DNA of 64,000 bases. Origin: Thermithiobacillus tepidarius DSM 3134. Its GTDB lineage: Bacteria > Pseudomonadota > Gammaproteobacteria > Acidithiobacillales > Thermithiobacillaceae. Positions within the stretch are counted from its first letter, which is position 1. Every line of letters starts with the position of its first letter. The position numbers were made by a program, and so were the translations under genes. Shown piece by piece: positions 49,101 to 64,000 of this stretch. The notes under the pieces were generated by a model, which had not been told where the DNA came from, ran no database searches, and saw nothing but the letters and a program-made list of their open reading frames with translations. Location: NCBI RefSeq assembly GCF_000423825.1, contig NZ_AUIS01000007.1:62001-126000 (forward strand). The letters run 5' to 3'.

Positions 49101-49496
49101 TTACCCACCCCAGCCGAACTGTTCCAGAAATTCCGGCAAGCGCCGCACGATTTCCTCGCGCCCGAAGAACCGGTCCGCCCGGGCCAACCGCGCCTGATCC
49201 CGCACCACCTCATCCCCGCCAAAGCAGAAAATCGGCGTCTGCAGCATGTATTCGGTGCGCACTTCCCGGATGGGCGCCAACGGATCGAAGACGTCCACCT
49301 CGTCGAGATCCACCAGGATGAAGCGATGCAGCAGGATTTCCTGCCACTCGCCCACTTCTTCCAGATCCGTCACGGCCTTCATCTCCCATCCGGCCGGCGT
49401 GGCCGCCCGCAACGCCGCGATGATCTCCGGGTCCGAAGACATCACGATGTAGGCCCGCTGCAAGCGCCGCTGAATGGTCGGTGTCTTGTCGCTCAT
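49101..49496 (-). CDS. CheY-like receiver-domain protein, stand-alone
   Basis: 131 residues with the alternating pattern of a receiver: AYIVMSSDPEIIAAL, the phospho-acceptor-like strand FILVDLDEVDVFDP, TPIFCFGGDE and a terminal helix. The acidic pair after strand 1 is missing (SSD), so it may be a pseudo-receiver. Third gene of the operon with the lipoate-ligase-like protein (12-base gap). Confidence 0.6.
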   Translation of the reverse strand: MSDKTPTIQRRLQRAYIVMSSDPEIIAALRAATPAGWEMKAVTDLEEVGEWQEILLHRFILVDLDEVDVFDPLAPIREVRTEYMLQTPIFCFGGDEVVRDQARLARADRFFGREEIVRRLPEFLEQFGWGG

Positions 49497-49508: not shown

Positions 49509-50573
49509 CTAGCCATTCTCTTCCACATGGGCCGTCTGCCGTATGCGCTCGGCCCAGTGCCGTGCCGCCGCCGGCCCGAGACACCGCAGGCGCGGTTCCA
49601 GCTCGGGCGCGGTTGGCCGGCAACCCAGCACCGCCTCGGTGATCGCCGCCTGCATCAGCGGGCCGGCCCCGGCCACGCGCGCGATCCGGCCGGCACGGGT
49701 GAGAATGCGCACCCACTCCCCATCCCAGTGGCGCTCCGTCAGATAGGTGTCCGCCTTCACCTTGATGCCGTATGGCACGCGCCGCTTGGACGAACTGCTT
49801 TCCGCCTCCCATTCGTCCGCCTCCACCTCGTCCAGGGCCGCGGCCATGGCGGCCGCCTCGGAGGGCGTCGGCGCGCTTTCCTCCAGGCGCCAGCCCAGAT
49901 GCCGCTCCACCTGCGCACGCAGGGCCGCCGCCAGCGCCGTCGGCGCCGGCACGCTTCCCTCGGCGCGCCAGGAAGTCATCGACTCGGCCAGCGCTTCCGC
50001 CAACCAGGCCCGGAACCCGGCGGACGGCGCCGCCACCAGGCGGGCGAACAAAGCCGCGTCGAAGTCCAGCATGAAGCTGCTGGCAAAAACCTGGCACGGC
50101 CCCAGCAGGCCCGAACCGGTGCCGGCGATCTTGCGGCCATTCACCCAGAAATCATGTCTGCCCTGCGCCGCCGCCGGCAGGCCCAGGGCTTGGTACGTCC
50201 CGACGATGGCCGGTGCCAGGAAATCGAAGAGCGCCTGCGGCTGAAGCGGAGGACGGCGGGCATCGAAGGCGCGGGGCAGCACGAAAAAGAAGCTGTACTG
50301 GCGACCGTCCACCAGCACCGTGCCGCCACCCAGGGGACGCCTGATCCATGGGATGTCTTGCGTGCGGCAGGCCGCCGGATCCAGCTCCAGCGCGGCCTCC
50401 TGGGAGGCGCCCAGACTGAGATGCGGCCCACTGCGCCCCCACAGCAGCAGCGGCGGCGCATCAACCGCCTGGCTGGCCGCCAGTCCCATGTAGGCGGCAT
50501 GCAACGCCCGCGGCGCCACGTCGCCCAAGTCGATCCAGCGGGCCCGCAGCGATTGCGGCAAGGCCGGCCTCAC
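49509..50573 (-). CDS. Second lipoate-protein-ligase-like protein (LplA/BPL fold)
   Basis: 354 residues. Ligase motifs WIRRPLGGGTVLVDG (RRxxGGG) and NGRKIAGTGSG with the catalytic lysine, then SSFMLDFD, are all present, so it should be active or bind lipoyl-AMP. A C-terminal region (RRVPYGIKVKADTYLTERHW, GAGPLMQAAITE) resembles the LplB-type accessory domain. It is distinct from the sLpl(AB) at 56808. ATGA overlap with the gene before. Target protein unknown; the nearby LbpA pair or PDH E2 are candidates. Confidence 0.82.
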   Translation of the reverse strand: MRPALPQSLRARWIDLGDVAPRALHAAYMGLAASQAVDAPPLLLWGRSGPHLSLGASQEAALELDPAACRTQDIPWIRRPLGGGTVLVDGRQYSFFFVLPRAFDARRPPLQPQALFDFLAPAIVGTYQALGLPAAAQGRHDFWVNGRKIAGTGSGLLGPCQVFASSFMLDFDAALFARLVAAPSAGFRAWLAEALAESMTSWRAEGSVPAPTALAAALRAQVERHLGWRLEESAPTPSEAAAMAAALDEVEADEWEAESSSSKRRVPYGIKVKADTYLTERHWDGEWVRILTRAGRIARVAGAGPLMQAAITEAVLGCRPTAPELEPRLRCLGPAAARHWAERIRQTAHVEENG

Positions 50574-50977
50574 CCCTCCTGGCCGGACTCCCCGCCCTCG
50601 GGCTTGGGCTTGTAGAAGGCGTTGAAGTAGAAATCCCGCTGGTTCAGCTCCTGATACCAGCGCGCCCGATCCTGCACGCCCTGACGCAGGACTTCGATGA
50701 TGGCCTTGGCCTGCTCGGCGTCCAGGATCAGAATGGCGTCCTGCAGGTCCTCGTCCAGGTCGATGAAATGGGCCGCCATGCCCTCCGGCGGCATCACGTG
50801 CACCAGGTAGGACTCCACGCTCGGGTCCTCCAGGTCGAAAGGCGTCATCACCAACCGCCCCAGATAGGCCAGCCGGGCCAGCTGATTGAAGCGGGGAATT
50901 TCCAGCTTCTTGCCCTTCCGGTACTTGTTCAGCTCGTTCTTGAGCGCACTGACGTCGGTGAGTTGAATGGTTTTCAT
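50570..50977 (-). CDS. Conserved hypothetical preceding the lipoate-ligase-like gene
   Basis: 135 residues from ATG 50977; overlaps the ligase-like start by 4 bases (ATGA). Acidic, cytoplasmic, with MKTIQLTDVSALKNELNK, FIDLDEDLQDAILILD and QDRARWYQELNQRDFYFNAFYK regions. No cysteines. No family recognised. Coupled translation suggests a complex or joint role with the ligase-like protein. Confidence 0.65.
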   Translation of the reverse strand: MKTIQLTDVSALKNELNKYRKGKKLEIPRFNQLARLAYLGRLVMTPFDLEDPSVESYLVHVMPPEGMAAHFIDLDEDLQDAILILDAEQAKAIIEVLRQGVQDRARWYQELNQRDFYFNAFYKPKPEGGESGQEG

Positions 50978-51131
50978 CGCGCTATTCCGTATCAATTTGG
51001 TCGGGTATTAGTGTGCACTGATAGAGGCATGCAAGACAAGTCCCGAAACGGGTGCCGCGGGGAAGCATTATGTGTCGCCTGCACGGCAACAGCCATATCC
51101 GACCACTTCCATGCTGCGCTGCGAGCGCAAC

Positions 51132-51178: not shown

Positions 51179-52471
51179 TTAAAACTTGAACTGCATCTGC
51201 ATGGAGACGGAGTCCTCGCTCAGCCTGTTGGTCACGCTGGTGCCCGCCAGCGGCCCTGCGGCGGGATTGACGACCCGACCCGACTCCTCATTTTCGAACG
51301 CATGGTAATAGGCGGCATTCAGCACCAAATTCTTGGTCAGCTGATAGCCGGCACCGACGCTGGCATGATGCTGCACGATGGCGGGGGCGAAGACGTTGAA
51401 GAACTGCTGATCCCCCTTGATCGGATTCTGGCCGTAGTTGTAGCCGGCCCGCAAGGCCAAGCGCGGGGTCACCATGTACTGGGTACCCAGGCCCAGGGTC
51501 CAAATGTCCTCCCAGCCGAAGCCCCGAACCCTGCCGCTGCTGTCGAAGCCGCTTTCCTGGAAGCCGTCGGTGTCGCTGTAGTTGATCCACTCGAGATCGG
51601 CCGCCAGCATCCACTCCGGAATCGGTTTGTAGCTGAAGCCCGCGCCAATCATCATCGGATAGTCCAGCTTGAAGCTGGGCGTGGCCGGCGAGCCGTCCGG
51701 ATACTGAGAGTTCCACTTGAAGTCCTGGAACCACTGCGGGCTCTTGAAGGACAAGCCCAGCGCCAGGTTCGGCATCGGCTTGTAGGTGGTGCCCAGGGTG
51801 AAGCCCCAGCCCCAGGCGGTGGCGGTGTGCAGGGCATCCGGGTAGCCGCTGGCGTTCGGGGGGGTGGCCGGGAACGGATTGACCGCCAAGGACGACCAAT
51901 CGATGTTCACGCCGGCGCCCACCGACCAGTTCGGCGTGATCTGGTAGGACGCCGAGGGGGTCATCTGCATCAACTGATAGTTGGCATAGATGGAGCCGAA
52001 GCCACCGGCGGATTGAGGCGCGGCCAAGGGGTTGGAGTTGCCGGCACCCGCGACAAAGGGGTTGGCAGGATAATCCACGCTGAAGCCGCCGATCCCCAAC
52101 GCGGTGAAACCGAGGGTCCACGGCCCCTGCGTCTTGTAGACGATGCCCATGGACGGAATCGGTGCCGCTCGGGTCTCGCTCTCCACAGTCCCGCTGCTCC
52201 CCAAGGGGCCGAATACGGTGGTATCGGCCGACATGCTGCGGTCGGGGATGAAGAGTTCGAAGCCGAACTCCATGGAGCTCTGGTCCATGAAGGAGATGGA
52301 CGAGGCATTGTTGTGGTTGGAACCGATGGCATCCAGGGAAGTCGCGATGCTGGCACCGCCCATGGACTGGTTGATGGAGCCGATGCCGTGCAGGACGTGA
52401 CCGTTGGTGGCCAGCGCGGGTGCCGCGTAGAGCAGCGCCACGGAAGCCGCGAGCAGGTTGGATTTACGCAT
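51179..52471 (-). CDS. FadL/OmpP1-family outer-membrane channel, copy 1
   Basis: 430 residues. Signal peptide ends in ALA; the mature N-terminus TNGHVLHGIGSINQSMGGASIA is the FadL hatch (residues ~22-43); the chain ends in MQFKF, a C-terminal Phe as in outer-membrane barrels. FadL proteins admit hydrophobic molecules; in sulfur oxidisers they have been proposed to take in sulfur compounds, which is inference. Shares a 651-bp near-identical core with the neighbour at 52899. AAGGAA precedes the ATG. Confidence 0.88.
   Translation of the reverse strand: MRKSNLLAASVALLYAAPALATNGHVLHGIGSINQSMGGASIATSLDAIGSNHNNASSISFMDQSSMEFGFELFIPDRSMSADTTVFGPLGSSGTVESETRAAPIPSMGIVYKTQGPWTLGFTALGIGGFSVDYPANPFVAGAGNSNPLAAPQSAGGFGSIYANYQLMQMTPSASYQITPNWSVGAGVNIDWSSLAVNPFPATPPNASGYPDALHTATAWGWGFTLGTTYKPMPNLALGLSFKSPQWFQDFKWNSQYPDGSPATPSFKLDYPMMIGAGFSYKPIPEWMLAADLEWINYSDTDGFQESGFDSSGRVRGFGWEDIWTLGLGTQYMVTPRLALRAGYNYGQNPIKGDQQFFNVFAPAIVQHHASVGAGYQLTKNLVLNAAYYHAFENEESGRVVNPAAGPLAGTSVTNRLSEDSVSMQMQFKF
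51369..52019 (-). repeat. fadL core repeat, copy 1
   Basis: 651 bases matching 53110-53760 at a fixed offset of 1741 with three differences seen by eye (51800, 51970, 51977). Flanks on both sides diverge sharply. Confidence 0.95.
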
Positions 52472-52898: not shown

Positions 52899-54227
52899 TT
52901 AGAATTTAAACTGCATCTGCATGGAGACGGAGTCCTCGCTCAGCTTGTTGGTCACATTCGAGCCGGGAACAGCCGTGTTCATGGGCGGGAACCCCGGCGC
53001 CCCGCTGCTGATGATCGGCCCCGACTCCTCGTTCTCGAAGACGTGATAGAAGGCGGCATTCAACGCCAGGTTCTTGGTCAACTGGTAACCCGCACCCAGG
53101 CTGACGTGGTGCTGCACGATGGCGGGGGCGAAGACGTTGAAGAACTGCTGATCCCCCTTGATCGGATTCTGGCCGTAGTTGTAGCCGGCCCGCAAGGCCA
53201 AGCGCGGGGTCACCATGTACTGGGTACCCAGGCCCAGGGTCCAAATGTCCTCCCAGCCGAAGCCCCGAACCCTGCCGCTGCTGTCGAAGCCGCTTTCCTG
53301 GAAGCCGTCGGTGTCGCTGTAGTTGATCCACTCGAGATCGGCCGCCAGCATCCACTCCGGAATCGGTTTGTAGCTGAAGCCCGCGCCAATCATCATCGGA
53401 TAGTCCAGCTTGAAGCTGGGCGTGGCCGGCGAGCCGTCCGGATACTGAGAGTTCCACTTGAAGTCCTGGAACCACTGCGGGCTCTTGAAGGACAAGCCCA
53501 GCGCCAGGTTCGGCATCGGCTTGTAGGTGGTGCCCAGGGTAAAGCCCCAGCCCCAGGCGGTGGCGGTGTGCAGGGCATCCGGGTAGCCGCTGGCGTTCGG
53601 GGGGGTGGCCGGGAACGGATTGACCGCCAAGGACGACCAATCGATGTTCACGCCGGCGCCCACCGACCAGTTCGGCGTGATCTGGTAGGACGCCGAGGGG
53701 GTCATCTGCAGCAACTGGTAGTTGGCATAGATGGAGCCGAAGCCACCGGCGGATTGAGGCACAGCCAGCGGATTACAGCTGGGACAGGTAGCTGGATTCA
53801 CGCCGGGGTAATCGACGCCGAAGCCGCCGATGCCGAGCGCGGTGAAGCCGAGGGTCCAAGGGCTGTTGGTTTTATAGACGATGCCCATGGACGGAATCGG
53901 TGACTCGCGCGTTTCGCTGTCCACCGTCCCTGATGCAGAAACACCGGGAAATGCGGTAGGCGCAGTAGCGGAATAACTGCGGTCGGGGATGAAGAGTTCG
54001 AAGCCGAACTCCACCGAGCTCTGGTCCATGAAGGAAGTGGACGAGACGTTGTTGTGGTTGGAGCCGATGGCGTCGATGGAGGTGGCGATGCCCGCGCCGC
54101 CCATGGACTGGTTGATGGAACCCACCCCGTGCAGGACGTGGCCGTTGGTGGCCAGCGCGGGCGCTGCATAGGCCAGCGCAATTGATGCTGCAAGAATGTT
54201 GCGTTTACGTATCATTTTTCTGTGCAT
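52899..54227 (-). CDS. FadL/OmpP1-family outer-membrane channel, copy 2
   Basis: 442 residues from ATG 54227 with GGGGAGAAACGA upstream. Same plan as copy 1: signal peptide, hatch TNGHVLHGVGSINQSMGGAGIA, barrel, final MQFKF. Differs from copy 1 mainly before residue ~160 (for instance NPATCPSCNP, two cysteines in an external loop region) and after ~365. A paired hydrophobic-compound or sulfur uptake role next to the sHdr/lip cluster is plausible but untested. Confidence 0.88.
   Translation of the reverse strand: MHRKMIRKRNILAASIALAYAAPALATNGHVLHGVGSINQSMGGAGIATSIDAIGSNHNNVSSTSFMDQSSVEFGFELFIPDRSYSATAPTAFPGVSASGTVDSETRESPIPSMGIVYKTNSPWTLGFTALGIGGFGVDYPGVNPATCPSCNPLAVPQSAGGFGSIYANYQLLQMTPSASYQITPNWSVGAGVNIDWSSLAVNPFPATPPNASGYPDALHTATAWGWGFTLGTTYKPMPNLALGLSFKSPQWFQDFKWNSQYPDGSPATPSFKLDYPMMIGAGFSYKPIPEWMLAADLEWINYSDTDGFQESGFDSSGRVRGFGWEDIWTLGLGTQYMVTPRLALRAGYNYGQNPIKGDQQFFNVFAPAIVQHHVSLGAGYQLTKNLALNAAFYHVFENEESGPIISSGAPGFPPMNTAVPGSNVTNKLSEDSVSMQMQFKF
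53110..53760 (-). repeat. fadL core repeat, copy 2
   Basis: Partner of 51369-52019; about 99.5% identical over 651 bases. Confidence 0.95.
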
Positions 54228-54442: not shown

Positions 54443-55582
54443 TTAGTCGCAGCGCAGCTCCTGCAGGCGCATCTGCCGGCGCACGATTTCCACGTCGCCC
54501 TTGTTCAGGGCGAAGGGGAAGGAGCGGATGTCCGAGGGCGAGGAGTCGCCGTAGGGCCGGTTGCAGGCGGACACCTCCTCGTCGTCCTTGCCGGGGCAGC
54601 CGGAAGTCTGGAAGGGCTTGCCAGAGTTGATGATGTCCTCCAGCTCGGCCTGCGGATAACCGAAGTCCACCACGCGGCCGTACTCGTCGAAGCTCATGTC
54701 CTTGACGTTGCCGCCGGCGTAGTCGATCAGGAAGCGGCCCAGCTGCACGCGGCGCCACTGGTCCTGGGGCACGGCGTCCCAGTCGTCCATCATGGAGCCC
54801 TTCTCCGGGAAGAAGGCGAACATGTGGTTGTGGCCGCCCATGTCCTTGATCTTCTGGCAGACCTCCAGCATCTCCTGCTCGGTCTCGCCCATGCCGCAAA
54901 TGAGATGGGCGCCGAACTTCTCGGGGCCGAAGACCTCGGCGGCCCATTCGATGGCCTGCCAGTACTTCTCCCAACGGTGCGGGCTCTGCACGGTCTTGCC
55001 GCGGGTGCGCTCGAAGATCTCCGGCGTGACCGCGTCCAGGGCCACCGTGAAGATGTCGGCGCCCAGGTTCTTGAGCTCGATCAGATCTTCCTTCTGCATG
55101 GTGGTGGGGTTGGATAGGATGGAGACCGGGATATGCGGGGCCACTTCCATCCAGCGCTTCAGGATGACGCGGGTGTCATGGTCGGAGTTGGGGTGGGTGA
55201 TCATGCTGATGCACATGCGCTCGAACTGGCCCTTGTCGTGGGCGGCGGCGATCTTTTCCAGCATTTCGTCCACCCGCACGGTCGGCCAGTCGACGCGGAT
55301 GAAGTTGCGGTCGGCGTAGTCGCGCGCTTCCTCGCGGTGGCGGGCCAGGCCGCAGTAGGTGCAGTTGGCGCGGCAACCCTCGGGATAGGTCATGAGCAGG
55401 TTGAGGCAATGGGTGCAGGCGGTACGGTGCATGACGCCGGGAATCAGGCCCAGGGTGATGGCCGCCGCGGTGCTCATCTGGATGTACTCCGGCGAGCGCA
55501 TCTCCGGGGTCTTGATGTTGTAGTTCGGCCGGTAGAAGGTCACCGGCTGGGGAGTGTTGAGATGTTCAGGTGCAGCGCTCAT
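54443..55582 (-). CDS. LipS1/LipS2-type radical SAM lipoyl synthase (a)
   Basis: 379 residues from ATG 55582 with AGGAGG upstream. Radical-SAM CxxxCxxC at C70, C74, C77 (CRANCTYC), preceded by extra cysteines in TACTHC and followed by a C-terminal TSGCPG / SACNRP region that may hold an auxiliary cluster. Its place beside LbpA, a lipoate ligase and the other radical SAM gene matches the LipS1/LipS2 pathway, where two enzymes insert the two sulfurs of lipoate. Which of the two it is I cannot say. A solitary REP lies in the gap upstream. Confidence 0.8.
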   Translation of the reverse strand: MSAAPEHLNTPQPVTFYRPNYNIKTPEMRSPEYIQMSTAAAITLGLIPGVMHRTACTHCLNLLMTYPEGCRANCTYCGLARHREEARDYADRNFIRVDWPTVRVDEMLEKIAAAHDKGQFERMCISMITHPNSDHDTRVILKRWMEVAPHIPVSILSNPTTMQKEDLIELKNLGADIFTVALDAVTPEIFERTRGKTVQSPHRWEKYWQAIEWAAEVFGPEKFGAHLICGMGETEQEMLEVCQKIKDMGGHNHMFAFFPEKGSMMDDWDAVPQDQWRRVQLGRFLIDYAGGNVKDMSFDEYGRVVDFGYPQAELEDIINSGKPFQTSGCPGKDDEEVSACNRPYGDSSPSDIRSFPFALNKGDVEIVRRQMRLQELRCD

Positions 55583-55660
55583 AAATTGCCTCCTCGGTCT
55601 CCATGACTCTAAGCTGTTGTGTAATGGGCGCCGACGGGTCAATCCCGTTGCCCCTGGTTT

Positions 55661-55682
55661 GTAGGAGCGAGCTTGCTCGCGA
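55661..55682 (+). repeat. Solitary REP sequence
   Basis: GTAGGAGCGAGCTTGC then TCGCGA, same 22-base unit as in the REPINs, without an inverted partner nearby. It sits in the 167-bp gap between the LipT-like and LipS-type genes. Confidence 0.85.
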
Positions 55683-55749
55683 AACCCCGCCCTCTTCCCA
55701 ATTCCGCAGGGATGCCTCAGAAAAGCGGCCCGCCCCGACCAAGCTGCCG

Positions 55750-56811
55750 TTACGCGGCGAAGTATTCCTCAAAAGCGATCCAACCGGTCCGCATGACCCT
55801 GTCGTCGTGCGCCGCGGGCCGCCGCCAGACCTGCTCCAAAGCCTTGCGCCGCGCCACCGCGCGCGCCAGCGTGGTCTCGAACTGGTCCTGCATGTCCTCC
55901 TCGAAGTCGGCGAACTCTGCTTCGTCGCCGAACTTGAGGTAAGCCGCCGCCGCCCGCCCCGCCCGCTCGCCGCTGATGACGGCTGCGGGAATGCCGGCAC
56001 CGGTGATCGGATGGGTCAGGCCCGCCGCGTCGCCCACCAGCAGCGTGGTGCCGTGCACCATGCGCCGCAGGCCACTGACCGGAATCGCCCCGCCGGTGCG
56101 CCCCAGGATCTCCTCGCCCACCAGTCCGCGCTCCACCATCTGTCGGTGCAGGTTCTCCAAGGGCGCCTTGAGATTGTCCTCGAAGCGGCGATCCGCGCCG
56201 ATGCCCAGGTTGGCCACCTCGCCCTTGGGAAAGAGCCAGCCGTAGCCGCCCGGAAAGGCGTCGGATAGAAAAATGTCCGTGTCGGCATAGGGCCGGCGCA
56301 ACGGGACCGTGTACTGGCGGGTATAGACCACCTCCAGGTCCGGCACCCCGACGGCACGTCCGACCAGGCTGTGCGGGCCATCGGCGCCGATGAGCACGCG
56401 CGGCCGGATCAGATGCTCGTTGTCCTGATAGCGCAGCACGGCCGTATCGCCATCCCAGCGCAGCAGGCGGGCCGCGGTCCACAGCGTGGCGCCGGCGGCA
56501 ACGGCCTTGGCCGCCAGCGCCCGGTCGAAGGCGCCGCGGTCGATCATGAGGCCGGGGAAGGCACTGCGGTGGCTGGCGCTCGACGGCAGAAAGGTGAGCA
56601 TGCCCTCGACCTGCTGGGCCAGCACGCCTTCGCCCCGGGTGTAGGGCAGCATGGGAGTCGGCACGAATTCGGCGCACTGCACCGGCTCGCCGATCTCGGC
56701 GCGCTTGTCGATGACCAGCACCCGCGCCCCGCCCTCGGCGGCGCGGTAGGCGGCGCTGGCCCCGGCCGGGCCGCAGCCCACCACCAGGACGTCCACGGCG
56801 GTCGCGGTCAT
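55750..56811 (-). CDS. lipT: LipT-like FAD-dependent oxidoreductase (geranylgeranyl-reductase family)
   Basis: 353 residues. N-terminal FAD loop VVGCGPAGASAAYRAA, DKRAEIG, and the second FAD motif LVGDAAGLTHPITGAGI are intact. The family holds geranylgeranyl reductases, but genes of this kind sit with sHdr/LipS clusters and are called LipT; a reductase or electron-supply role for lipoate assembly is proposed in the literature, not shown here. Overlaps the ligase stop as ATGA. Confidence 0.8.
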   Translation of the reverse strand: MTATAVDVLVVGCGPAGASAAYRAAEGGARVLVIDKRAEIGEPVQCAEFVPTPMLPYTRGEGVLAQQVEGMLTFLPSSASHRSAFPGLMIDRGAFDRALAAKAVAAGATLWTAARLLRWDGDTAVLRYQDNEHLIRPRVLIGADGPHSLVGRAVGVPDLEVVYTRQYTVPLRRPYADTDIFLSDAFPGGYGWLFPKGEVANLGIGADRRFEDNLKAPLENLHRQMVERGLVGEEILGRTGGAIPVSGLRRMVHGTTLLVGDAAGLTHPITGAGIPAAVISGERAGRAAAAYLKFGDEAEFADFEEDMQDQFETTLARAVARRKALEQVWRRPAAHDDRVMRTGWIAFEEYFAA

Positions 56812-57893
56812 TGCCCCACCTGCCGCGCCGCCTGCTCGCGATGCTCCAGCAGCAGCGCAAAAGCGTGGATGAAATCCTCTGGAGTCAGCAGCATCATGTC
56901 CGCCTCGCGACTGGCGAAGAACTCCCTGATGCGCCCAGGCACCTCATCCAGGCGCACGTTGCGCAGATGCGCTTCCAGATCGGCAATCAGCCGCTTGGGG
57001 TTGACGAAGAAGTCGCCGGTGAAAAGGATCTGGGCCAGCCGGCCCTTGTAATCATCCACCAACGCCTCTACCCGGATGAGTCCGCCCGGGGCCTTGTAGG
57101 CAACGGACAGGGTGGGCAGCTCCTGGCGCGGACGGTCCACCAGATAAATCCATTCGGGATCGTCGATCTCGCGAAGCGCCTGGGCGAACAAGGCTTCCTC
57201 GGCCTCGCTCAGGCCGGCCTGCTCGAAGTGCAGGCCGAGCCCTTCGCCGAAGCCCTGCCGCAGTGCACCCTTGACCGCGGCCAGATCCGGCGCCGTGCCC
57301 AAGAGGGTACGCAGACAGGTCACCCGCTCGCGGGCCGAGGCGATGGCATGGGCCGACAGCTTCTCCGCCGGGATGCGCAGCACCCGCAGCATGGCCTCGA
57401 TATCGAAGTCCACCAGCACCGTACCCTGAAACAGCACCGAATCGCCATCGAAGACGCCGCCGGTGCCGGAAATCTTCCGGCCTTCCACCTCGATGTCGTT
57501 GCGCGGGCGGAACTGCGCCGCGATGCCCAGCTTGCTCAAGCCGGCGGCGGCCGCCTCGCAGATGGCAGCCGAGATGCCGGCCATCTCGGCCCGGCCCAGG
57601 TCGCGCCTGTTGAAATAGAGTTCCCAGCCCAGTTGGCCGGGATCGAAATAAATGGCGCCGCCGCCGGTAATGCGCCGCTGGATCTCCACGCCCTGGGCCC
57701 GGCAGTAGTCCTCCTGCAGTTCCTGGACGACCGACTGGTGATAGCCGACCAGCGCGGCCGGCCGGAACTGCAGAAAGCGCAGCGTGTTGGGGATGCGTCC
57801 CTGCTGGTGCGCTTCCAGCAGGGCGCGGTTCAGGGCCATGTTCTCAGCCGCCGAGCGCAGTCCCGTGTCGATGATCCGCCACCTTGTCGACAT
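56808..57893 (-). CDS. sLpl(AB)-type lipoate-protein ligase
   Basis: 361 residues. RRITGGGAIYFDPGQLGWELY and GRKISGTGG carry the lipoyl-AMP site and catalytic lysine; a C-terminal accessory domain (from ~265, VAYKAPGGLIRVEALVDDYKGRL) makes it an LplA-LplB fusion. In sHdr organisms sLpl(AB) loads octanoate or lipoate on LbpA. ATGA-coupled to lipT and 32 bases after the radical SAM gene. Confidence 0.87.
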   Translation of the reverse strand: MSTRWRIIDTGLRSAAENMALNRALLEAHQQGRIPNTLRFLQFRPAALVGYHQSVVQELQEDYCRAQGVEIQRRITGGGAIYFDPGQLGWELYFNRRDLGRAEMAGISAAICEAAAAGLSKLGIAAQFRPRNDIEVEGRKISGTGGVFDGDSVLFQGTVLVDFDIEAMLRVLRIPAEKLSAHAIASARERVTCLRTLLGTAPDLAAVKGALRQGFGEGLGLHFEQAGLSEAEEALFAQALREIDDPEWIYLVDRPRQELPTLSVAYKAPGGLIRVEALVDDYKGRLAQILFTGDFFVNPKRLIADLEAHLRNVRLDEVPGRIREFFASREADMMLLTPEDFIHAFALLLEHREQAARQVGQ

Positions 57894-57925
57894 CTCAGAC
57901 CCTCACGATCCTGGGCGGCTCCGCC

Positions 57926-59050
57926 CTAATTGGCGACCACCACGGGAATGTCCCGGATGCTCATGCGCCGCTTGGGTGCGCTCGGCACGTAATCCAGCAC
58001 CACGCTGCCCGATTCGCCGGAGGTCAGCGCCAACACTTCTTCGCCGACCACCATGGAGCAGCAGGACGGCGTGACCCGCACGTCGCGGTCCAAGTGCTTG
58101 GCCAGCGCCAACATGCCGTCCGAGGGGAAGGCGACACCGTTCAGGCCGGCCATGACCGCATAGGTGTCCGTCACCATGCGATGCATGCCCGAGGGCCGGG
58201 CACAACCCAGCAGCACCGGCGTGTCGGGCAGCGCCTCGCGGGCGTCGATGAAGAACTTGCCGATCTCACGCGTCTCCGGAGTGGCGAAAGGCCGGCTCGA
58301 CGGCGCATAGTGGGGCATGATCACCACCAGCACCAGGGCGTCGGGCACGTGGCGCCGCACGATCTCCAGCGCATTCCACTCGCCCAGCAGCTTGCCGTAG
58401 TGCAGGCCGAGCACGATATGGGGCACCACCTTCATCTTGGTGGACACCAGCGCCTCCAGGGAGGCCTCGAAGTCGTCCACGCTGCGCTTCAGGTGATAGA
58501 CCTGGGTGATGGTGTCCTGCGAGCCGATGACATCCATCATCGCCACGTCCACCCCGGCGTCCTCCATGCCGCGGGCGAACTCCGGCGTAGCCAGGCCCGT
58601 GTGCATGGCGATCTGCAGATGGGGATATTGATCCTTGATGCGGCGGACGGTGGGGAAGTAAGGCTCGTAATGTACTACGTTGCGGTGATCGGAGCCGCCG
58701 CTCAGGAGCATGCCCCGCGCCCCGTCGGCCACCAGCTCGTCCGCCAGCCGGGCCAGATCCTCAGGCGTGCGCGCCGGGATCATGGGCTCGAGAATTTTCG
58801 CTTTGCAATGATCACATTGCAGCTTGCAGTCACCGCCGGTGATGGAAATGGCGGGAAACGCGTTCTTCCCGCAGGCGGCGACTTCGGATGTTTCGTGATG
58901 CTTGAAAGAGGGTGTATAGAAATTGACCTGGCCGGTTTTGCTGCCCTGCAGATGGGCCCACCGGGATTGCATGTCGGCGACAAGCTCCGCATCCAGGACC
59001 AAATCCTCAAGCGCCTCGACTTGTGCCACCGCATCCAGCCATGAACTCAT
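57926..59050 (-). CDS. LipS1/LipS2-type radical SAM lipoyl synthase (b)
   Basis: 374 residues. CxxxCxxC at C75, C79, C82 (CKLQCDHC), SAM-binding TGGDC and LSGGSD segments, and late cysteines (CARP, SCCS) that may ligate a sulfur-donor cluster. Little similarity to the paralogue at 54443 beyond the motif, in keeping with two different enzymes acting in turn on octanoyl-LbpA. 62 bases after lbpA with a hairpin (59079-59104) between. Confidence 0.8.
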   Translation of the reverse strand: MSSWLDAVAQVEALEDLVLDAELVADMQSRWAHLQGSKTGQVNFYTPSFKHHETSEVAACGKNAFPAISITGGDCKLQCDHCKAKILEPMIPARTPEDLARLADELVADGARGMLLSGGSDHRNVVHYEPYFPTVRRIKDQYPHLQIAMHTGLATPEFARGMEDAGVDVAMMDVIGSQDTITQVYHLKRSVDDFEASLEALVSTKMKVVPHIVLGLHYGKLLGEWNALEIVRRHVPDALVLVVIMPHYAPSSRPFATPETREIGKFFIDAREALPDTPVLLGCARPSGMHRMVTDTYAVMAGLNGVAFPSDGMLALAKHLDRDVRVTPSCCSMVVGEEVLALTSGESGSVVLDYVPSAPKRRMSIRDIPVVVAN

Positions 59051-59078
59051 ATCAACCCCGCGTAAATTCGGTAAGGAA

Positions 59079-59104
59079 GGGGCAAGGGCGCCAGCCCCTG
59101 CCCC
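59079..59104 (-). terminator. Weak intra-operon hairpin between lbpA and radical SAM gene
   Basis: GGGGCA / TGCCCC outer and GGGC / GCCC inner stems, then TTCCTT on the minus strand. Too T-poor for a full stop; attenuation or RNA-stability element possible. Confidence 0.45.
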
Positions 59105-59112
59105 CAGACAGA

Positions 59113-59550
59113 CTAGCAGCCGCCGAAGCCGTCCGCGGCCATCTTGGCCTCGAAAGCGCTCAGGGCGTCAGCACCGGTCTTCAACTCGCCGGACTCGCCG
59201 GCCCAGTCGGAGGGCTTGAGCTTGACCACCCAGCCGTTGCCGTAGGGATCCTTGTTGATCAGGCCGGGATTGGCCGCCACATCGGCGTTGGTGGCGGTGA
59301 TCTCGCCGGTCACGGGGCTCTTCAGGGGGCCCACCCACTTGCCGGATTCCACGGTTGCCGCGGACTTGTCCTTGGCCACTTCCTTGCCCACCTTCTTGGG
59401 GGTGTAGGAAACGATTTCACCGGCCAGGGAGCAGGCGTAGGAGGTCATGCCGACGGTGACTGTCCCGTCGTCTTCCTTGCGCACCCATACGTTGTTTTCG
59501 ACGTTGTAGTAAAGGTCTTCCGGAATGTTACAACCACGAACAGTTCCCAT
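59113..59550 (-). CDS. lbpA: sHdr-associated lipoate-binding protein LbpA
   Basis: 145 residues. GcvH-like fold with lipoyl-lysine K71 in TVESGKWVGPL and the N-terminus RGCNIPEDLYYNVENNVWVRK typical of LbpA. Three cysteines, one the very last residue (GFGGC). In sHdr bacteria LbpA carries sulfur intermediates on its lipoate during oxidation. GGAGGAG precedes the ATG. Preceded and followed by hairpins. Confidence 0.93.
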   Translation of the reverse strand: MGTVRGCNIPEDLYYNVENNVWVRKEDDGTVTVGMTSYACSLAGEIVSYTPKKVGKEVAKDKSAATVESGKWVGPLKSPVTGEITATNADVAANPGLINKDPYGNGWVVKLKPSDWAGESGELKTGADALSAFEAKMAADGFGGC

Positions 59551-59568
59551 ATTCTCCTCCTTAAGGGT

Positions 59569-59618
59569 AAAAGAAAAGCCGATCCGCCGGGTGGGTGAGC
59601 ACCCTTCTTCTACGGATC
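59569..59618 (-). terminator. Terminator-like element between dsrE and lbpA
   Basis: Minus strand: outer stem GATCCG / CGGATC with inner GGGTG / CACCC, then GGCTTTTCTTTTACC. It stands in the 96-bp gap upstream of lbpA. Confidence 0.6.
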
Positions 59619-59646
59619 AGACAAACTCACGGACAAAACTTGGTTT

Positions 59647-60039
59647 TCAGAAAAACAGCAGCCGGTCTGAAGTGAGAATCAGGTCGGCGAGATCGCCCGC
59701 GCTGGCTGTCGCGGTGACCTCCGGAATCAGATTGCCCTCCTCCATCTTATAGCCAGGCATGGCGGGACGACAAACATAGAATTTCACCCCGGCGGTCTTG
59801 GCATCCCGGATGAATTCGATGATCCGCTTCCCCCCCTCCATGGCGGCCATGTTTTCCGCGACCCCCGGCTCCATCAGGCGCACGCCTTCCATGGTGAAAA
59901 AGATCTTAACGTCAGCATCCATGGAAGACAATAAGGCGCCCAGGTAAAAGGGCGTGGCGCAACGCTGCGGCGTGCTGGGGCCGCTGGTCATGACGATGAC
60001 CACGCTCTGCTCTTCGTGATCGACGAAATGTTTTTCCAT
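59647..60039 (-). CDS. DsrE-like sulfur carrier protein
   Basis: 130 residues. DsrE/TusD fold: VVIVMTSGPSTPQRCATPF (C27), ALLSSMDADVKIFFTMEGVRLM, and GVKFYVCRPAM (C90). Such proteins pass protein-bound persulfide to oxidising enzymes. Lies between two lipoate-binding protein genes, 3 bases after the second one, so it likely serves the sHdr system. Exact DsrE subtype not determined. Confidence 0.85.
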   Translation of the reverse strand: MEKHFVDHEEQSVVIVMTSGPSTPQRCATPFYLGALLSSMDADVKIFFTMEGVRLMEPGVAENMAAMEGGKRIIEFIRDAKTAGVKFYVCRPAMPGYKMEEGNLIPEVTATASAGDLADLILTSDRLLFF

Positions 60040-60042
60040 GAC

Positions 60043-60489
60043 TTACCGGATACCCCGTTCGCAGGTGATGTTGTCGCGCTCGCAACGGGCTTTGTAGCCC
60101 TCCCACGCCTGCTCACCGGTGAGCATGACGCTGAGCGCCGCCTCGGGGCCGCCCACCGGCTCCACCCGGGCGATCCAGGCCTCATAGGGCTCGATGTTGA
60201 GAAGATTGGGGTCCTCGAGGACTTCCTCGTTGGCCTCGGCAATCACGCAGTCGAAGAAATTGGGCACCGGCCCTGCCCACTTGCCGCTTTCAATGGTGGC
60301 AACAGGCTTGCCGGGCGGGCGGCGGGTGCCGGGTCGGCGTACCCGGACGTGCAGGATCTTCCCGGCGATGCTCTGGGAAATGTCCGTCATGCCCACCGTC
60401 AGGGTGCCGTCATCCTCGCGACGGGCCCAGACCTGGTATTCGTCGTCATAGTAGAGTTCGGGTCTGAACTCGCAGCCGTGAAATTCCAT
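60043..60489 (-). CDS. Second lipoate-binding protein (LbpA paralogue)
   Basis: 148 residues from ATG 60489. Same GcvH-like plan: FHGCEFRPELYYDDEYQVWARREDDGTLTVGM, lipoyl-lysine K70 in TIESGKWAGPV, but with an unusual basic insert RVRRPGTRRPPG before it and a different C-terminus (CERDNITCERG). Ribosome-binding site is weak (GGAA). First gene after the terminator at 60530-60557. Confidence 0.9.
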   Translation of the reverse strand: MEFHGCEFRPELYYDDEYQVWARREDDGTLTVGMTDISQSIAGKILHVRVRRPGTRRPPGKPVATIESGKWAGPVPNFFDCVIAEANEEVLEDPNLLNIEPYEAWIARVEPVGGPEAALSVMLTGEQAWEGYKARCERDNITCERGIR

Positions 60490-60529
60490 AGGGTTCCATC
60501 TATCAAGACTGAGCCTCTGAAACGCAGGC

Positions 60530-60557
60530 AAAAAAAGGGGCGCATCATGCGCGCCCC
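60530..60557 (-). terminator. Strong terminator inside the sHdr locus, after hdrB2
   Basis: GGGGCGC / GCGCCCC, 7-bp GC stem and 7-base loop, followed on the minus strand by seven Ts. It is 15 bases after the hdrB2 stop and 41 bases before the next start. Confidence 0.88.
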
Positions 60558-60571
60558 GGTGCAGATCGTTG

Positions 60572-61483
60572 TTAGGCCAGACCCTTGGACTTCAGGAGAT
60601 CCAGAGAGTCGCTCACGTTGTCGGTCGCGCCGACCTTGCGCGGGGACAAACCCATGGCCATGCCTAGCAACTGGGTAAAGTAGATGATCTTGACGTTGGT
60701 CTTGATGCCGAACTCGGTTTCAGCACGCACCTGATGCATCTCCAGGCCGGAATGGCAGGTCGGGCACTCGGTGGCGATCACTTCGGCGCCCGCGTCCTCG
60801 GCCGCCTGCAGCAGATTCAGCACCAGCTGCGTGGAAGTGTCCGCATCGGACAGGGTATGGGCGCCGCCGCAGCAGGCGGTCTTCAACGGGAAATCCACGT
60901 TGACGGCACCGGCCGCTTCCAGCAGGTCATCCATGAAGTGGGGCTTGTAGGAGGATTCGGAGCCGGGGCCCTGATCCTTTTCCGGGAAGATCTGGCGCGG
61001 CCGGGTGTACATGCAGCCATAGTAGTTGGCCACCTTCAACCCGTTCAGGCTCTTCTTGATGTGGCCCTTGATGCCCTCGGGGCCCACCTCTTCCATCAGC
61101 CACTCCAGGAGGTGCACCGTGCGCACGTCACCCTCGAAGACCGGATCGTCCGCCTTGCGAGCGAGATCCTGCACGGTATCGAGCGCCTTCTCGGAAGTCG
61201 CCAGCTCGTACTCGGCCTTCTTCAGGTTGTGATAGCAGCCGTTGCAGGGCGCCATCACCGTGTCGCAGCCCTGCAGCTTGCTGGCGATGGCCAGATTGCG
61301 GGCAGACATGTAGGTCTGCAGCATGGGGTGGATGTTCTTCGCCTCCATGGCGCCGCAGCAGTTGTAGTCCTGCAGGTTTTCCATCTGCAGGCCGAGCTCC
61401 TTGACGAGCACACGGGTGGACTTGTCGTAGGGGCCGCCGGAACCTTCCAGCGCGCAACCCGGATAGTATGCAACCTTAGCCAT
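60572..61483 (-). CDS. hdrB2: Heterodisulfide-reductase-like subunit HdrB2
   Basis: 303 residues. Two CCG domains: YYPGCAL...NCCGAME...APCNGC and YGCMYTRP...ACCGGAH...ECPTC, which in HdrB bind the unusual [4Fe-4S] clusters at the disulfide site. In sulfur oxidisers the complex runs in the oxidising direction and forms sulfite. Overlaps hdrC2 by 8 bases. Confidence 0.93.
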   Translation of the reverse strand: MAKVAYYPGCALEGSGGPYDKSTRVLVKELGLQMENLQDYNCCGAMEAKNIHPMLQTYMSARNLAIASKLQGCDTVMAPCNGCYHNLKKAEYELATSEKALDTVQDLARKADDPVFEGDVRTVHLLEWLMEEVGPEGIKGHIKKSLNGLKVANYYGCMYTRPRQIFPEKDQGPGSESSYKPHFMDDLLEAAGAVNVDFPLKTACCGGAHTLSDADTSTQLVLNLLQAAEDAGAEVIATECPTCHSGLEMHQVRAETEFGIKTNVKIIYFTQLLGMAMGLSPRKVGATDNVSDSLDLLKSKGLA

Positions 61484-62195
61484 GATGCATGGCCTCCTTC
61501 TGCTCTTTCACGTATTCACGCAGCACTTCGCCAGTGCGGCCCCAGGACTTGGTCTTCGGGGTGAAGACCATGTTCATGCCCATGCGCATGAGATGGCCGA
61601 CGGGCAAATGCTTGTTCATGCGCTTGGTCAACTCGACCAGCCAGTCCTGCACCAGCGGCTGCTTGGTCTTTTTCAGGAAGTTCACCAGCACGTGGGTATC
61701 CTCGATGCGACCATGATCGAGGCACTGTTCGGTAAACTCCTCATCGAAGATGCTGGAGCGGGTCTTCTCGGTGTGGCCGTTTTCCTCCAGCCAGTGAGCC
61801 GTCGCCTTCATCACGCCTTCCGGACGCACGTCCTTGGGGCAGATGTTGGTGCACTTGTTGCAGGACACGCATTGCCAGATGATGTCCTTGTCCTTCAGCA
61901 ACTCGTCTTTCAGGCCCAGGCGGATGAGATAGATCCAGTAGCGGGGATTGAAGTCGATGTTCTGAGCATACATGGTGCAGGAGTTGGTACAGGAACCGCA
62001 CTGCCAGCAGCGATGCACGTTCTCGCCGCCCGGATAGCTCTGAATCACCTGCTCGAACTGCGCATCGTAGTCGGTCAGCGTGCGCGGGGTGATCATGGTA
62101 TTCCAGTGCCCGGAAACATCGACTCCGTCCACCACGAGCTTGTCGTGGGTCAGAATGCGATCTTGATCAATAAGGGACTTCTCATGAATGGCCAT
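61476..62195 (-). CDS. hdrC2: Heterodisulfide-reductase-like subunit HdrC2
   Basis: 239 residues. Two ferredoxin-type motifs, CWQCGSCTNSC and CVSCNKCTNICPK, supply [4Fe-4S] clusters linking HdrA to HdrB. The C-terminal half (TKRMNKHLPVGHLMRMGMNMVF) is the HdrC helix region. 16 bases after the Hyp gene. Confidence 0.93.
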   Translation of the reverse strand: MAIHEKSLIDQDRILTHDKLVVDGVDVSGHWNTMITPRTLTDYDAQFEQVIQSYPGGENVHRCWQCGSCTNSCTMYAQNIDFNPRYWIYLIRLGLKDELLKDKDIIWQCVSCNKCTNICPKDVRPEGVMKATAHWLEENGHTEKTRSSIFDEEFTEQCLDHGRIEDTHVLVNFLKKTKQPLVQDWLVELTKRMNKHLPVGHLMRMGMNMVFTPKTKSWGRTGEVLREYVKEQKEAMHHG

Positions 62196-62211
62196 ATTAA
62201 CTCCTGCCCGG

Positions 62212-63045
62212 TTAATGCAAGGTTTCTTTCTTCACTCGCGAGGCACCTTGCCGGCGATGCGAGTCAATCCCTAACAATTTGCTGATATGCTCGGCCGGAT
62301 CGCTCTGCCCGCCGAAATCGGAGCGCAGGAACCCTTCCGCCATGGCCCGCAGGTACTCGCTGTACTGGTGAGCCAGGATGAGATCGATCAGCAGCGGAAG
62401 GTCACGATACACCCCCTGTTCCGCCAACCGCTCCCGCAACCACGCCCGTGCGCCTTCGAACACCTCTGGAGCCTCCCCGAAGGGGACTTCCTGCATGTGA
62501 TCGTTGCCGCTCACGAACTCGCGCAGGGCACCGGAAACCGTGCCTTGGTCCCACACCCACCGCGTCATCAGCGGATAACGCTCGGGGTCGTTGAAATGCA
62601 GCAGTTCGGCGGCGAAGTCGCGCAGGCTCCGCTTGGGCTTGCCTTCGGCCGGGATAGCGGCCTCGAAGCGGCGCATCCGCTCCGCCACCGGACCGTTGCC
62701 GTAGAGCAGATCGGCAACCTGCTCGGCGACCGCCTCGGCCCCCAACTCGTGCAGGACAGGCCACAGCTTGCGCCGCACGGTGAACATCTGCTCGACCAAC
62801 TGATGCAGGGCGGAAGCATCCAGGCTCCGCACCTGCTCCCGGCTCAACAAGGACTGGAACAAGGCGACTTTGGCCCGCAACTGTTCCAGGTAGGCATCGA
62901 TGCCGCCCTGCGCCTCCAGCATCTGCGCCAGCGCATTGAAGCCTCGCTGAAAGATGCCGGCATCCAGGGGCAGGGCCAGCTGGGCGGGGGTGATCGTCTC
63001 ACCCCCGCCGCCGCCTTTAGCCTGCGGCTTGCTTGGTCGAAGCAT
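62212..63045 (-). CDS. sHdr-associated Hyp protein
   Basis: 277 residues, soluble, helical, no cysteine motif. It occupies the position of the conserved hypothetical always found between hdrA and hdrC2 in sHdr clusters. The start at 63045 (MLRPSKPQAKGGGGG) overlaps hdrA by 29 bases and lacks a clear ribosome-binding site; a later start would cut the well-formed region from ITPAQLALPLDAG onward, so translation is probably coupled. Function unknown in all organisms. Confidence 0.82.
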   Translation of the reverse strand: MLRPSKPQAKGGGGGETITPAQLALPLDAGIFQRGFNALAQMLEAQGGIDAYLEQLRAKVALFQSLLSREQVRSLDASALHQLVEQMFTVRRKLWPVLHELGAEAVAEQVADLLYGNGPVAERMRRFEAAIPAEGKPKRSLRDFAAELLHFNDPERYPLMTRWVWDQGTVSGALREFVSGNDHMQEVPFGEAPEVFEGARAWLRERLAEQGVYRDLPLLIDLILAHQYSEYLRAMAEGFLRSDFGGQSDPAEHISKLLGIDSHRRQGASRVKKETLH

Positions 63046-64000
63046 AGAGGTCGGCGATGGCACGGGAAGCCGCGGACTGGCCCTGGGCGATCGAGGTGTC
63101 GATGTCCTCGGGACCCGTGGCCGCACCGGCGACGTAGATGCCGCGTCGGGTCGTGCCCTGGCTGTTGGTGTACTGCTCGGCGCGGTCAATGAAGCCGTGC
63201 TTCTCGAGGCCGATGCCAAAGACCTTGGCGATCTCGGGGTTCTCCTCGTTCGGATCCATGCCGATGGCGTGCACCACGATGTCCATGGGAATCACGATGG
63301 GGCGCTTGACCAAGGTATCTTCGCCCTTGACCAGCAGGCGGCCGTCGGGAGACTTGGTCACCTCGGCGATACGGGCCTTCACGAACTTGGTCTTGAACTC
63401 TTCCTGGGACTTCCAGTAGAACTTGTCCTCGTACAGGCCGAAGGTACGGATGTCCATGTAGTAGATGAACACATCGGTCTGCGGGCTGAGCTCCTTGATC
63501 TCCATGGCCAGGTTGGTGGAAACGGTACAGCAGATCTTGCTGCACCACTCGCGGCCGATCTGGCGGTCACGCGAGCCGACGCAGAGCAGGATGCAGACCC
63601 GCTCCGGCACGCGGCCATCGGAAGGGCAGCGGATTTGGCCGCTGGCCACCATCTGCTCCATCTGGGTCGTGGTGAGCACGTCCTCGTAGGTGCCGAAGCC
63701 CCACTCGGGCTTGTTGATGGAATCGAAGTGGGTGAAGCCGGTGGCCAGCACGATGGAGCCGGCACTGACGCTCTGCCCATTGCTCAACTGGCAGGTGAAG
63801 TTGCCCGCCTCGCCGTCCACCTTGGTGACCTTGGTGGACTTGTAGATGGTCACGTTGGGGTTGTTCTCCACGCGCGCCACCATGCGGCCCATGGCGTCCT
63901 TGGCCCATTCGCCGGAGGGAACCAGCTTCGCATAGCCCGAGATGACCGGGGCACCGCCGAGCACGTCTTCCTTTTCGACCAGGATCGCTTTCTTGCCGGC
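63017..64000 (-). CDS. hdrA: Heterodisulfide-reductase-like subunit HdrA, 3' part
   Basis: 328 residues run to the window edge; the N-terminal FAD-loop part lies outside. Visible: AILVEKEDVLGGAPVISGY, IVLATGFTHFDS, the cysteine region CILLCVGSRDRQIGREWCSKICCTVSTN (residues spread over ~145-175 of this part) with cluster-binding Cys, and the FAD-site GIYVAGAATGPEDIDTSIAQG. The flavin core of the sHdr complex. hdrC1 and hdrB1 are expected just beyond the right edge. Confidence 0.93.
   Translation of the reverse strand, partial: AGKKAILVEKEDVLGGAPVISGYAKLVPSGEWAKDAMGRMVARVENNPNVTIYKSTKVTKVDGEAGNFTCQLSNGQSVSAGSIVLATGFTHFDSINKPEWGFGTYEDVLTTTQMEQMVASGQIRCPSDGRVPERVCILLCVGSRDRQIGREWCSKICCTVSTNLAMEIKELSPQTDVFIYYMDIRTFGLYEDKFYWKSQEEFKTKFVKARIAEVTKSPDGRLLVKGEDTLVKRPIVIPMDIVVHAIGMDPNEENPEIAKVFGIGLEKHGFIDRAEQYTNSQGTTRRGIYVAGAATGPEDIDTSIAQGQSAASRAIADLYASTKQAAG

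Follow-up and report, generated by a model that had tools for sequence, protein, structure and literature searches.

Why does a sulfur-oxidation operon carry two different lipoate-binding proteins, one on either side of a DsrE-type gene? The question is raised by the minus strand of positions 54443-64000 in a stretch of 64,000 nucleotides (the window), which is part of contig C5 in the 2.96 Mb genome of Thermithiobacillus tepidarius DSM 3134. In gene direction, the segment reads hdrA (cut)-hyp-hdrC2-hdrB2-lbpA-dsrE-lbpA-lipS1-slpl-lipT-lipS2, and gene calls together with family matches confirm the gene string, strand, and coordinates from hdrA to lipS2 that an earlier report on this DNA (the original prediction) had read from the letters alone. 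The locus is almost certainly a group-I sHdr-LbpA sulfur-oxidation operon in which the two carriers are LbpA1 and LbpA2 in the published sense of the names. The operon itself is ordinary and of the standard type. For the two carriers, the reading offered here is a division of labor, with LbpA2 as the core carrier and LbpA1 as an auxiliary one. That division is put forward tentatively; the reading as a whole, which takes in the operon, the assignment of the carriers, and their division of labor, is somewhat probable. The operon and the pair were already known, and what is new here is a cysteine difference between the two proteins, the coupling of lbpA1 to dsrE, the uneven distribution of the two types among genomes, and a third LbpA.

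What was already published

Both carriers and the intervening DsrE were described in 2018-2019 (PMC6067878, PMC6382920), and all Thioalkalivibrio genomes that have the system carry it in the order hdrC1B1A-hyp-hdrC2B2-lbpA1-dsrE-lbpA2 (PMC6382920). In strain K90mix, lbpA1 is TK90_0638, lbpA2 is TK90_0640, and lipS1-slpl-lipT-lipS2 are TK90_0641-0644 (PMC6067878, PMC10332631). The names LbpA1 and LbpA2 date from 2018, as does the split into two clades, with one of each in organisms that have two LbpA (PMC6067878). Because of this published order, the hdrB2-adjacent gene is called lbpA1 and the lipS1-adjacent gene lbpA2, which is the reverse of the usage in the original prediction. The alphaproteobacterial LbpA (LbpA2 in Hyphomicrobium denitrificans) clusters with the lipS1-proximal protein in our tree, which fits the naming; the tree holds no K90mix sequences, and the names rest on the published gene order and on the Alphaproteobacteria that have LbpA2 only.

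H. denitrificans cannot oxidize sulfur without its single LbpA2 (PMC6067878, PMC10332631). An LbpA2 that is never lipoylated would, by the original prediction, have refuted its idea, but orthologues behave in the opposite way: both LbpA1 and LbpA2 of K90mix are lipoylated in vitro by the sHdr-linked ligase, and the LipS1-sLpl-LipT-LipS2 set modified LbpA proteins in E. coli. Why two LbpA exist was left unexplained in the 2018 paper, which also stated that no functionally important residue, cysteine for example, differs between the types in a conserved way (PMC6067878).

Two distinct carriers

Both proteins match the GCV_H family (PF01597) and were assigned to their types by the tree. LbpA1 (60043-60489, minus strand, like all genes given below for the window) has its lipoyl lysine at Lys70 and cysteines at positions 6, 81, and 143, and LbpA2 (59113-59550) has Lys71, Cys7, and Cys145; the two lysines are those named originally. 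In the tree rooted on GcvH, the LbpA1 clade has support of 85/68, and the LbpA2 clade, which includes types from sHdr-free genomes, has 99/95. The identity between the two host proteins is 35%, and it is 28-38% between same-locus pairs in 80 loci. A recent duplication or gene conversion is ruled out by the tree and the low within-locus identity, so that the two are distinct paralogues and not interchangeable recent copies, as had been proposed for this locus and published in 2018.

The proteins share with GcvH the fold and the lipoyl lysine, and differ from it in two additional end cysteines and in forming a separate clade; the lipoyl site reads ESVKA in LbpA and ESGKW in GcvH. AlphaFold2 models of LbpA1 and LbpA2 each have a predicted local distance difference test score (pLDDT) of 95. 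The LbpA1 model has the GcvH fold (template modeling score against PDB 3ab9 of 0.75 by query and 0.87 by target), and a sequence search of the PDB with LbpA returned H proteins as its sole matches. Both therefore have the GcvH-like fold, lipoyl lysine, and pair of end cysteines that define an LbpA. Neither is a GcvH, with scores of 49 and 97 bits against a TIGR00527 cut-off of 115.85 and positions outside the GcvH clade. However, LbpA2 exceeds the cut-off of the GcvH subfamily NF002270 (126.9 versus 117 bits), and because of this, automatic annotation will label it a glycine cleavage H protein.

Which residues, then, set the two types apart? In an alignment of 85 distinct LbpA1 and 89 LbpA2 sequences, 22 positions are at least 85% conserved within each group and hold different residues in the two. 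At position 81, a cysteine is present in 84 of the 85 LbpA1 proteins; LbpA2 has glycine in 87 cases and alanine in 2, and the matching site is glycine in GcvH and in the third LbpA type described below. Judged by the alignment, Cys81 is an invariant-type extra cysteine of LbpA1, a kind of difference previously said to be absent. The end cysteines, already published as conserved, are present in every member of both groups (C6/C143 and C7/C145). A C-terminal cysteine, which the original prediction had taken as the mark of one protein, does close the protein at 59113-59550 (it ends in GGC), but it is no distinction, since the LbpA1 at 60043-60489 has the same invariant cysteine followed by about five more residues. 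Nor is RRPGTRRPPG, just before the lipoyl site, a basic insert: the loop is 14 residues long in all 85 LbpA1, 89 LbpA2, 23 LbpA3, and 11 GcvH compared. It is merely more basic, with a mean charge of +5.6 in LbpA1, +3.5 in LbpA2, and -2.6 in GcvH.

Unequal occurrence of the two types

The occurrence of the carriers was followed in 274 gammaproteobacterial genomes, 18 with HdrB2 and 256 without, in counts that ignore shared descent. LbpA1 is present in 16 of the 18 and in none of the 256. In the two HdrB2 genomes that lack it, one locus lies at a contig end and the other is an alphaproteobacterial-type cluster. LbpA2-type proteins are present in nine of the 256 genomes without HdrB2, and the type was verified in all nine. 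The Alphaproteobacteria give the same picture from the other side: nine of 385 genomes have sHdr with LbpA2 only at the locus, and alphaproteobacterial loci L024-L028 and L212-L219 combine HdrB1 and HdrB2 with LbpA2 alone. From this unequal occurrence in the two classes, LbpA2 is the common denominator, able to exist without sHdr, and LbpA1 is an optional, sHdr-dependent addition. A fixed split between HdrB1 and HdrB2 is therefore disfavored and different roles are mildly favored. The suggestion, made originally, that one carrier serves sulfur loading and the other oxidation gains weak, indirect support from the same counts.

What could LbpA2 be doing without sHdr? None of the nine sHdr-free genomes has an sHdrA orthologue; their best matches, which are 30-36% identical and stand in tandem in six of the nine, look like Qmo subunits, judging by sequence. 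LipS1 is kept in five of the nine (L203, L220, L221, L222, L223). Four of these loci read rhd-dsrE2-lbpA2-lipS1-slpl, with lipT and lipS2 next where the contig allows and tusA in L221. The fifth, in genome G267, reads tusA-dsrE-lbpA2-lipS1-slpl-lipT-lipS2 with no hdr gene, LbpA1, or LbpA3, and its genus mate G156 has a complete sHdr system including LbpA1 and LbpA3. The presence of tusA or dsrE beside lbpA2 and the assembly genes, all without sHdr, supports sulfur uptake by LbpA2. These loci make a use of lipoate in sulfur transfer without sHdr possible, and they suggest another user of LbpA2; perhaps, as a speculation, this user is reverse Dsr.

The lbpA1-dsrE-lbpA2 arrangement

With HdrB2 as the query, 40 loci were collected from the sampled genomes and 80 from named organisms. 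In 109 of 109 gammaproteobacterial loci with an hdrB2-proximal lbpA, dsrE comes next and the lbpA pair flanks it, and the order hdrB2-lbpA-dsrE-lbpA-lipS1 is found in all gammaproteobacterial loci long enough to judge, with few exceptions. One exception is L022, from a gammaproteobacterium with an alphaproteobacterial-type cluster. Another is Acidithiobacillus sp. HP-2 (L036, L049), which has, besides a full operon, a second hdr set (B1, C2, B2, and C1 matches) without a nearby lbpA. In the complete 2.0 Mb genome G106 (L009), sHdr, LbpA1, and LbpA2 are present and there is no LipS1 match. Lineages with the standard order include Acidithiobacillus, Thioalkalivibrio, Ectothiorhodospira, Sulfuriferula, and several metagenome-derived ones. 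The pair around DsrE, singled out originally as what stands out at this locus, is thus the rule in Gammaproteobacteria and no peculiarity of the host genome.

Within this arrangement, the two gaps are unlike. Between lbpA1 and dsrE, the median gap is -1 base pair (bp), and it is 20 bp or less in 95 of 107 loci, with dsrE start codons set by rule; between dsrE and lbpA2, the median is 56 bp. Because the first gap is far shorter, lbpA1-dsrE looks like one coupled unit ahead of lbpA2. In the window, dsrE (59647-60039; PF02635, a DsrE-family sulfurtransferase) begins 3 bp past lbpA1.

A proposed division of labor between the carriers

How might the parts work together? LbpA1 and LbpA2 would be made as apo-proteins, to which sLpl would attach octanoyl; LipS2 and LipS1 would complete the lipoate on K70 and K71, with LipT as a further member of the set, as has been shown for orthologues. 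Sulfane sulfur would arrive via rhodanese, TusA, and DsrE-type proteins. By analogy with the published model, LbpA2 would be the core carrier whose lipoyl arm accepts the sulfane sulfur and hands it over to the sHdr complex for oxidation and release as sulfite. LbpA1 and its coupled DsrE would form an optional auxiliary carrier tied to sHdr, not one half of an HdrB1/HdrB2 pairing. The Cys81 and the more basic loop of LbpA1 suggest that it acts in a step of its own, either docking or the holding of sulfur.

Several points weigh against this division of labor. The most divergent LbpA1 (L023) has glycine at position 81. DsrE is not exclusive to LbpA1, since G267 and G033 have dsrE beside lbpA2 and no lbpA1, which weakens the idea of DsrE as a strict partner of LbpA1. 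Most of the 109 lbpA1-dsrE-lbpA2 loci share descent, and because of this, they stand for few independent events. We found no data on interactions, persulfides, or redox behavior of LbpA1, and the 2018 authors preferred simple multimer or gene-dosage explanations (PMC6067878).

That 2018 proposal is the rival that survives best, although we consider it rather unlikely. It holds that LbpA1 does the same job as LbpA2, either as a duplicate that gives more lipoyl arms per sHdr or as part of a hetero-oligomer, as in the lipoyl domains of E2. The fold, the two end cysteines, and the lipoyl lysine are indeed common to both proteins, one ligase modifies orthologues of both, and a single LbpA suffices in Alphaproteobacteria. 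However, equivalent copies are hard to square with the 22 positions that tell the types apart at a conservation of at least 85%, Cys81 included, with a within-locus identity of about 33% that speaks of an old split, or with an LbpA2 that is found without sHdr when LbpA1 never is. In a further alternative, which we regard as improbable, LbpA1-DsrE would mainly be a side branch outside the catalytic cycle, for storage or sensing, that holds sulfane sulfur while sHdr is saturated. The additional LbpA1 cysteine, the DsrE coupling, and the evolutionary dispensability of LbpA1 would suit such a branch, but G267 lacks LbpA1 and sHdr together, which a catalytic role would fit equally well. The pairing of one LbpA with HdrB1 and the other with HdrB2, as first proposed, would suit an operon that has a pair of B subunits and a pair of LbpA, but it is very improbable, since every alphaproteobacterial locus examined combines HdrB1 and HdrB2 with one LbpA2, and the lone LbpA2 of H. 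denitrificans is essential.

Drawn from a larger set of sequences than that of 2018, the differences found here (Cys81, the unequal occurrence, the lbpA1-dsrE coupling, and the third LbpA) turn the open remark of that year into specific mutants that can be made.

A third LbpA outside the operon

The host genome codes for a third LbpA-type protein, provisionally LbpA3, far from the operon (G000:C6:57689-58132, minus strand; L157:9687-10130). It has an N-terminal cysteine, ESGKW at the lipoyl site, and two C-terminal cysteines (CMRC), i.e., the LbpA cysteines and one more. The LbpA3 clade (100/97) is sister to LbpA1 (joint branch 100/93) and stands apart from LbpA2 and GcvH. With calls made at E < 1e-70, where the next best match was 2e-44, 15 of the 18 genomes with HdrB2 have LbpA3, and all 256 others lack it (Fisher p 4e-22, shared descent ignored). 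Most of the host order, which counts 31 species in the sample with Acidithiobacillus among them, has one to four copies.

The neighbors of LbpA3 recur as well. Of 24 loci, 21 have a CxxC thioredoxin-like gene within 3 kb and 19 have a hemerythrin gene there; the same seeds found neither in 121 control sHdr loci. The host copy differs, with a Crp-type regulator in place of these two genes and, 2-4 kb away, genes that appear persulfide dioxygenase-like, ArsR-type regulator-like, and rhodanese-like. An alphaproteobacterium with sHdr and LbpA2 (G592) has the LbpA3-hemerythrin-thioredoxin-like trio (L227:7369-7815) beside genes resembling TauE/SafE and TDT-type transporters. Because LbpA3 is missing from G626, a genome of the same genus, the trio points to transfer of the LbpA3 module between sHdr organisms. 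The chances are about even that sHdr oxidizers have three lipoate carriers, with LbpA3 in a transferable thioredoxin-like/hemerythrin module that cooperates with the sHdr pathway, LbpA1 and LbpA3 specific to sHdr, and LbpA2 more broadly linked to TusA and DsrE and functional in the absence of sHdr too. If this is true, LbpA3 could be, for example, an oxygen- or redox-linked branch that reoxidizes, protects, or stores lipoyl-bound sulfur. No paper on a third LbpA was found in the open-access literature, which is weak evidence of novelty.

Gene content and neighborhood of the operon

Pfam and NCBIfam agree on every gene of the locus except hyp. The gene for sHdrA, a flavin adenine dinucleotide (FAD) protein, lies at 63017-64000 and is cut by the window edge. 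Past the edge, the same contig (L006) continues upstream with rhd-dsrE2-hdrC1-hdrB1 and then the rest of hdrA, and the whole protein has 356 amino acids (aa; L006:5018-6088). The dsrE2 gene matches NF047629 with 298 bits. Orthologues of hdrA stand at the equivalent position in more than 100 loci. The hyp gene (62212-63000), between hdrA and hdrC2, has no Pfam or NCBIfam match and a provisional start codon; its position is kept in nearly all complete loci. It is followed by sHdrC2, the iron-sulfur subunit (61476-62195; PF13183), which overlaps by 8 bp with sHdrB2, the CCG-domain subunit (60572-61483; two PF02754 domains and a partial score for TIGR03288). The order hdrC1-hdrB1-hdrA-hyp-hdrC2-hdrB2, by which Cao et al. 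2018 defined the group-I sHdr-LbpA locus, is thus present. These genes are predicted to form a single operon with lbpA and the lipoate-assembly genes, given one strand and short gaps or overlaps.

The assembly genes were named from family matches and synteny. LipS1 (57926-59050) and LipS2 (54443-55582), both radical S-adenosylmethionine lipoyl synthases, have NF053742 and NF053743 as their top matches. Their scores are below the cut-offs (203 bits against 230, and 200 against 270), and no family fits better. The lipoate:protein ligase sLpl(AB) lies at 56808-57893 (PF21948; NF053749 LplB in part) and overlaps by 4 bp with lipT, which codes for an FAD-dependent oxidoreductase (55750-56811; PF01494/PF22578).

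The Thioalkalivibrio operon and the host locus are alike in gene content, order, strand, the LbpA types flanking dsrE, and assembly-gene order, and differ in the upstream sulfurtransferases and the downstream genes. With H. denitrificans, the host has in common the sHdr complex, LbpA2 (lipoylated there), and LipS1, LipS2, sLpl, and LipT; H. denitrificans has LbpA2 only, without the LbpA1-DsrE pair, and another order of assembly genes.

Upstream of rhd-dsrE2-sHdr (L006:10802-15349), there are genes for a molybdopterin oxidoreductase, an iron-sulfur protein, and a DmsC-type membrane protein, which would be SoeABC-like. If this assignment is right, the enzyme would oxidize the sulfite produced by sHdr.

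Downstream of lipS2, the host has, unlike Thioalkalivibrio, two tandem genes for OmpP1/FadL-type outer-membrane transporters (52899-54227 and 51179-52471; PF03349), with 89% DNA identity across 1.2 kb, and a second LplA-like gene. Of 88 loci, 59 have a FadL-type gene after lipS2, and the first one here is possibly the published lipY. Next comes a 141-aa protein (50570-50995), conserved downstream of lipS2 in 51 of 88 loci and without a significant match in Pfam, NCBIfam, or PDB. The second LplA-like catalytic-domain protein (49509-50573; PF21948, 77 bits) and, beside it, a conserved 131-aa protein for which family searches gave no match (49101-49496) are each present in 33 of 88 loci. The conserved cluster therefore runs on past the boundary drawn originally, to 49101.

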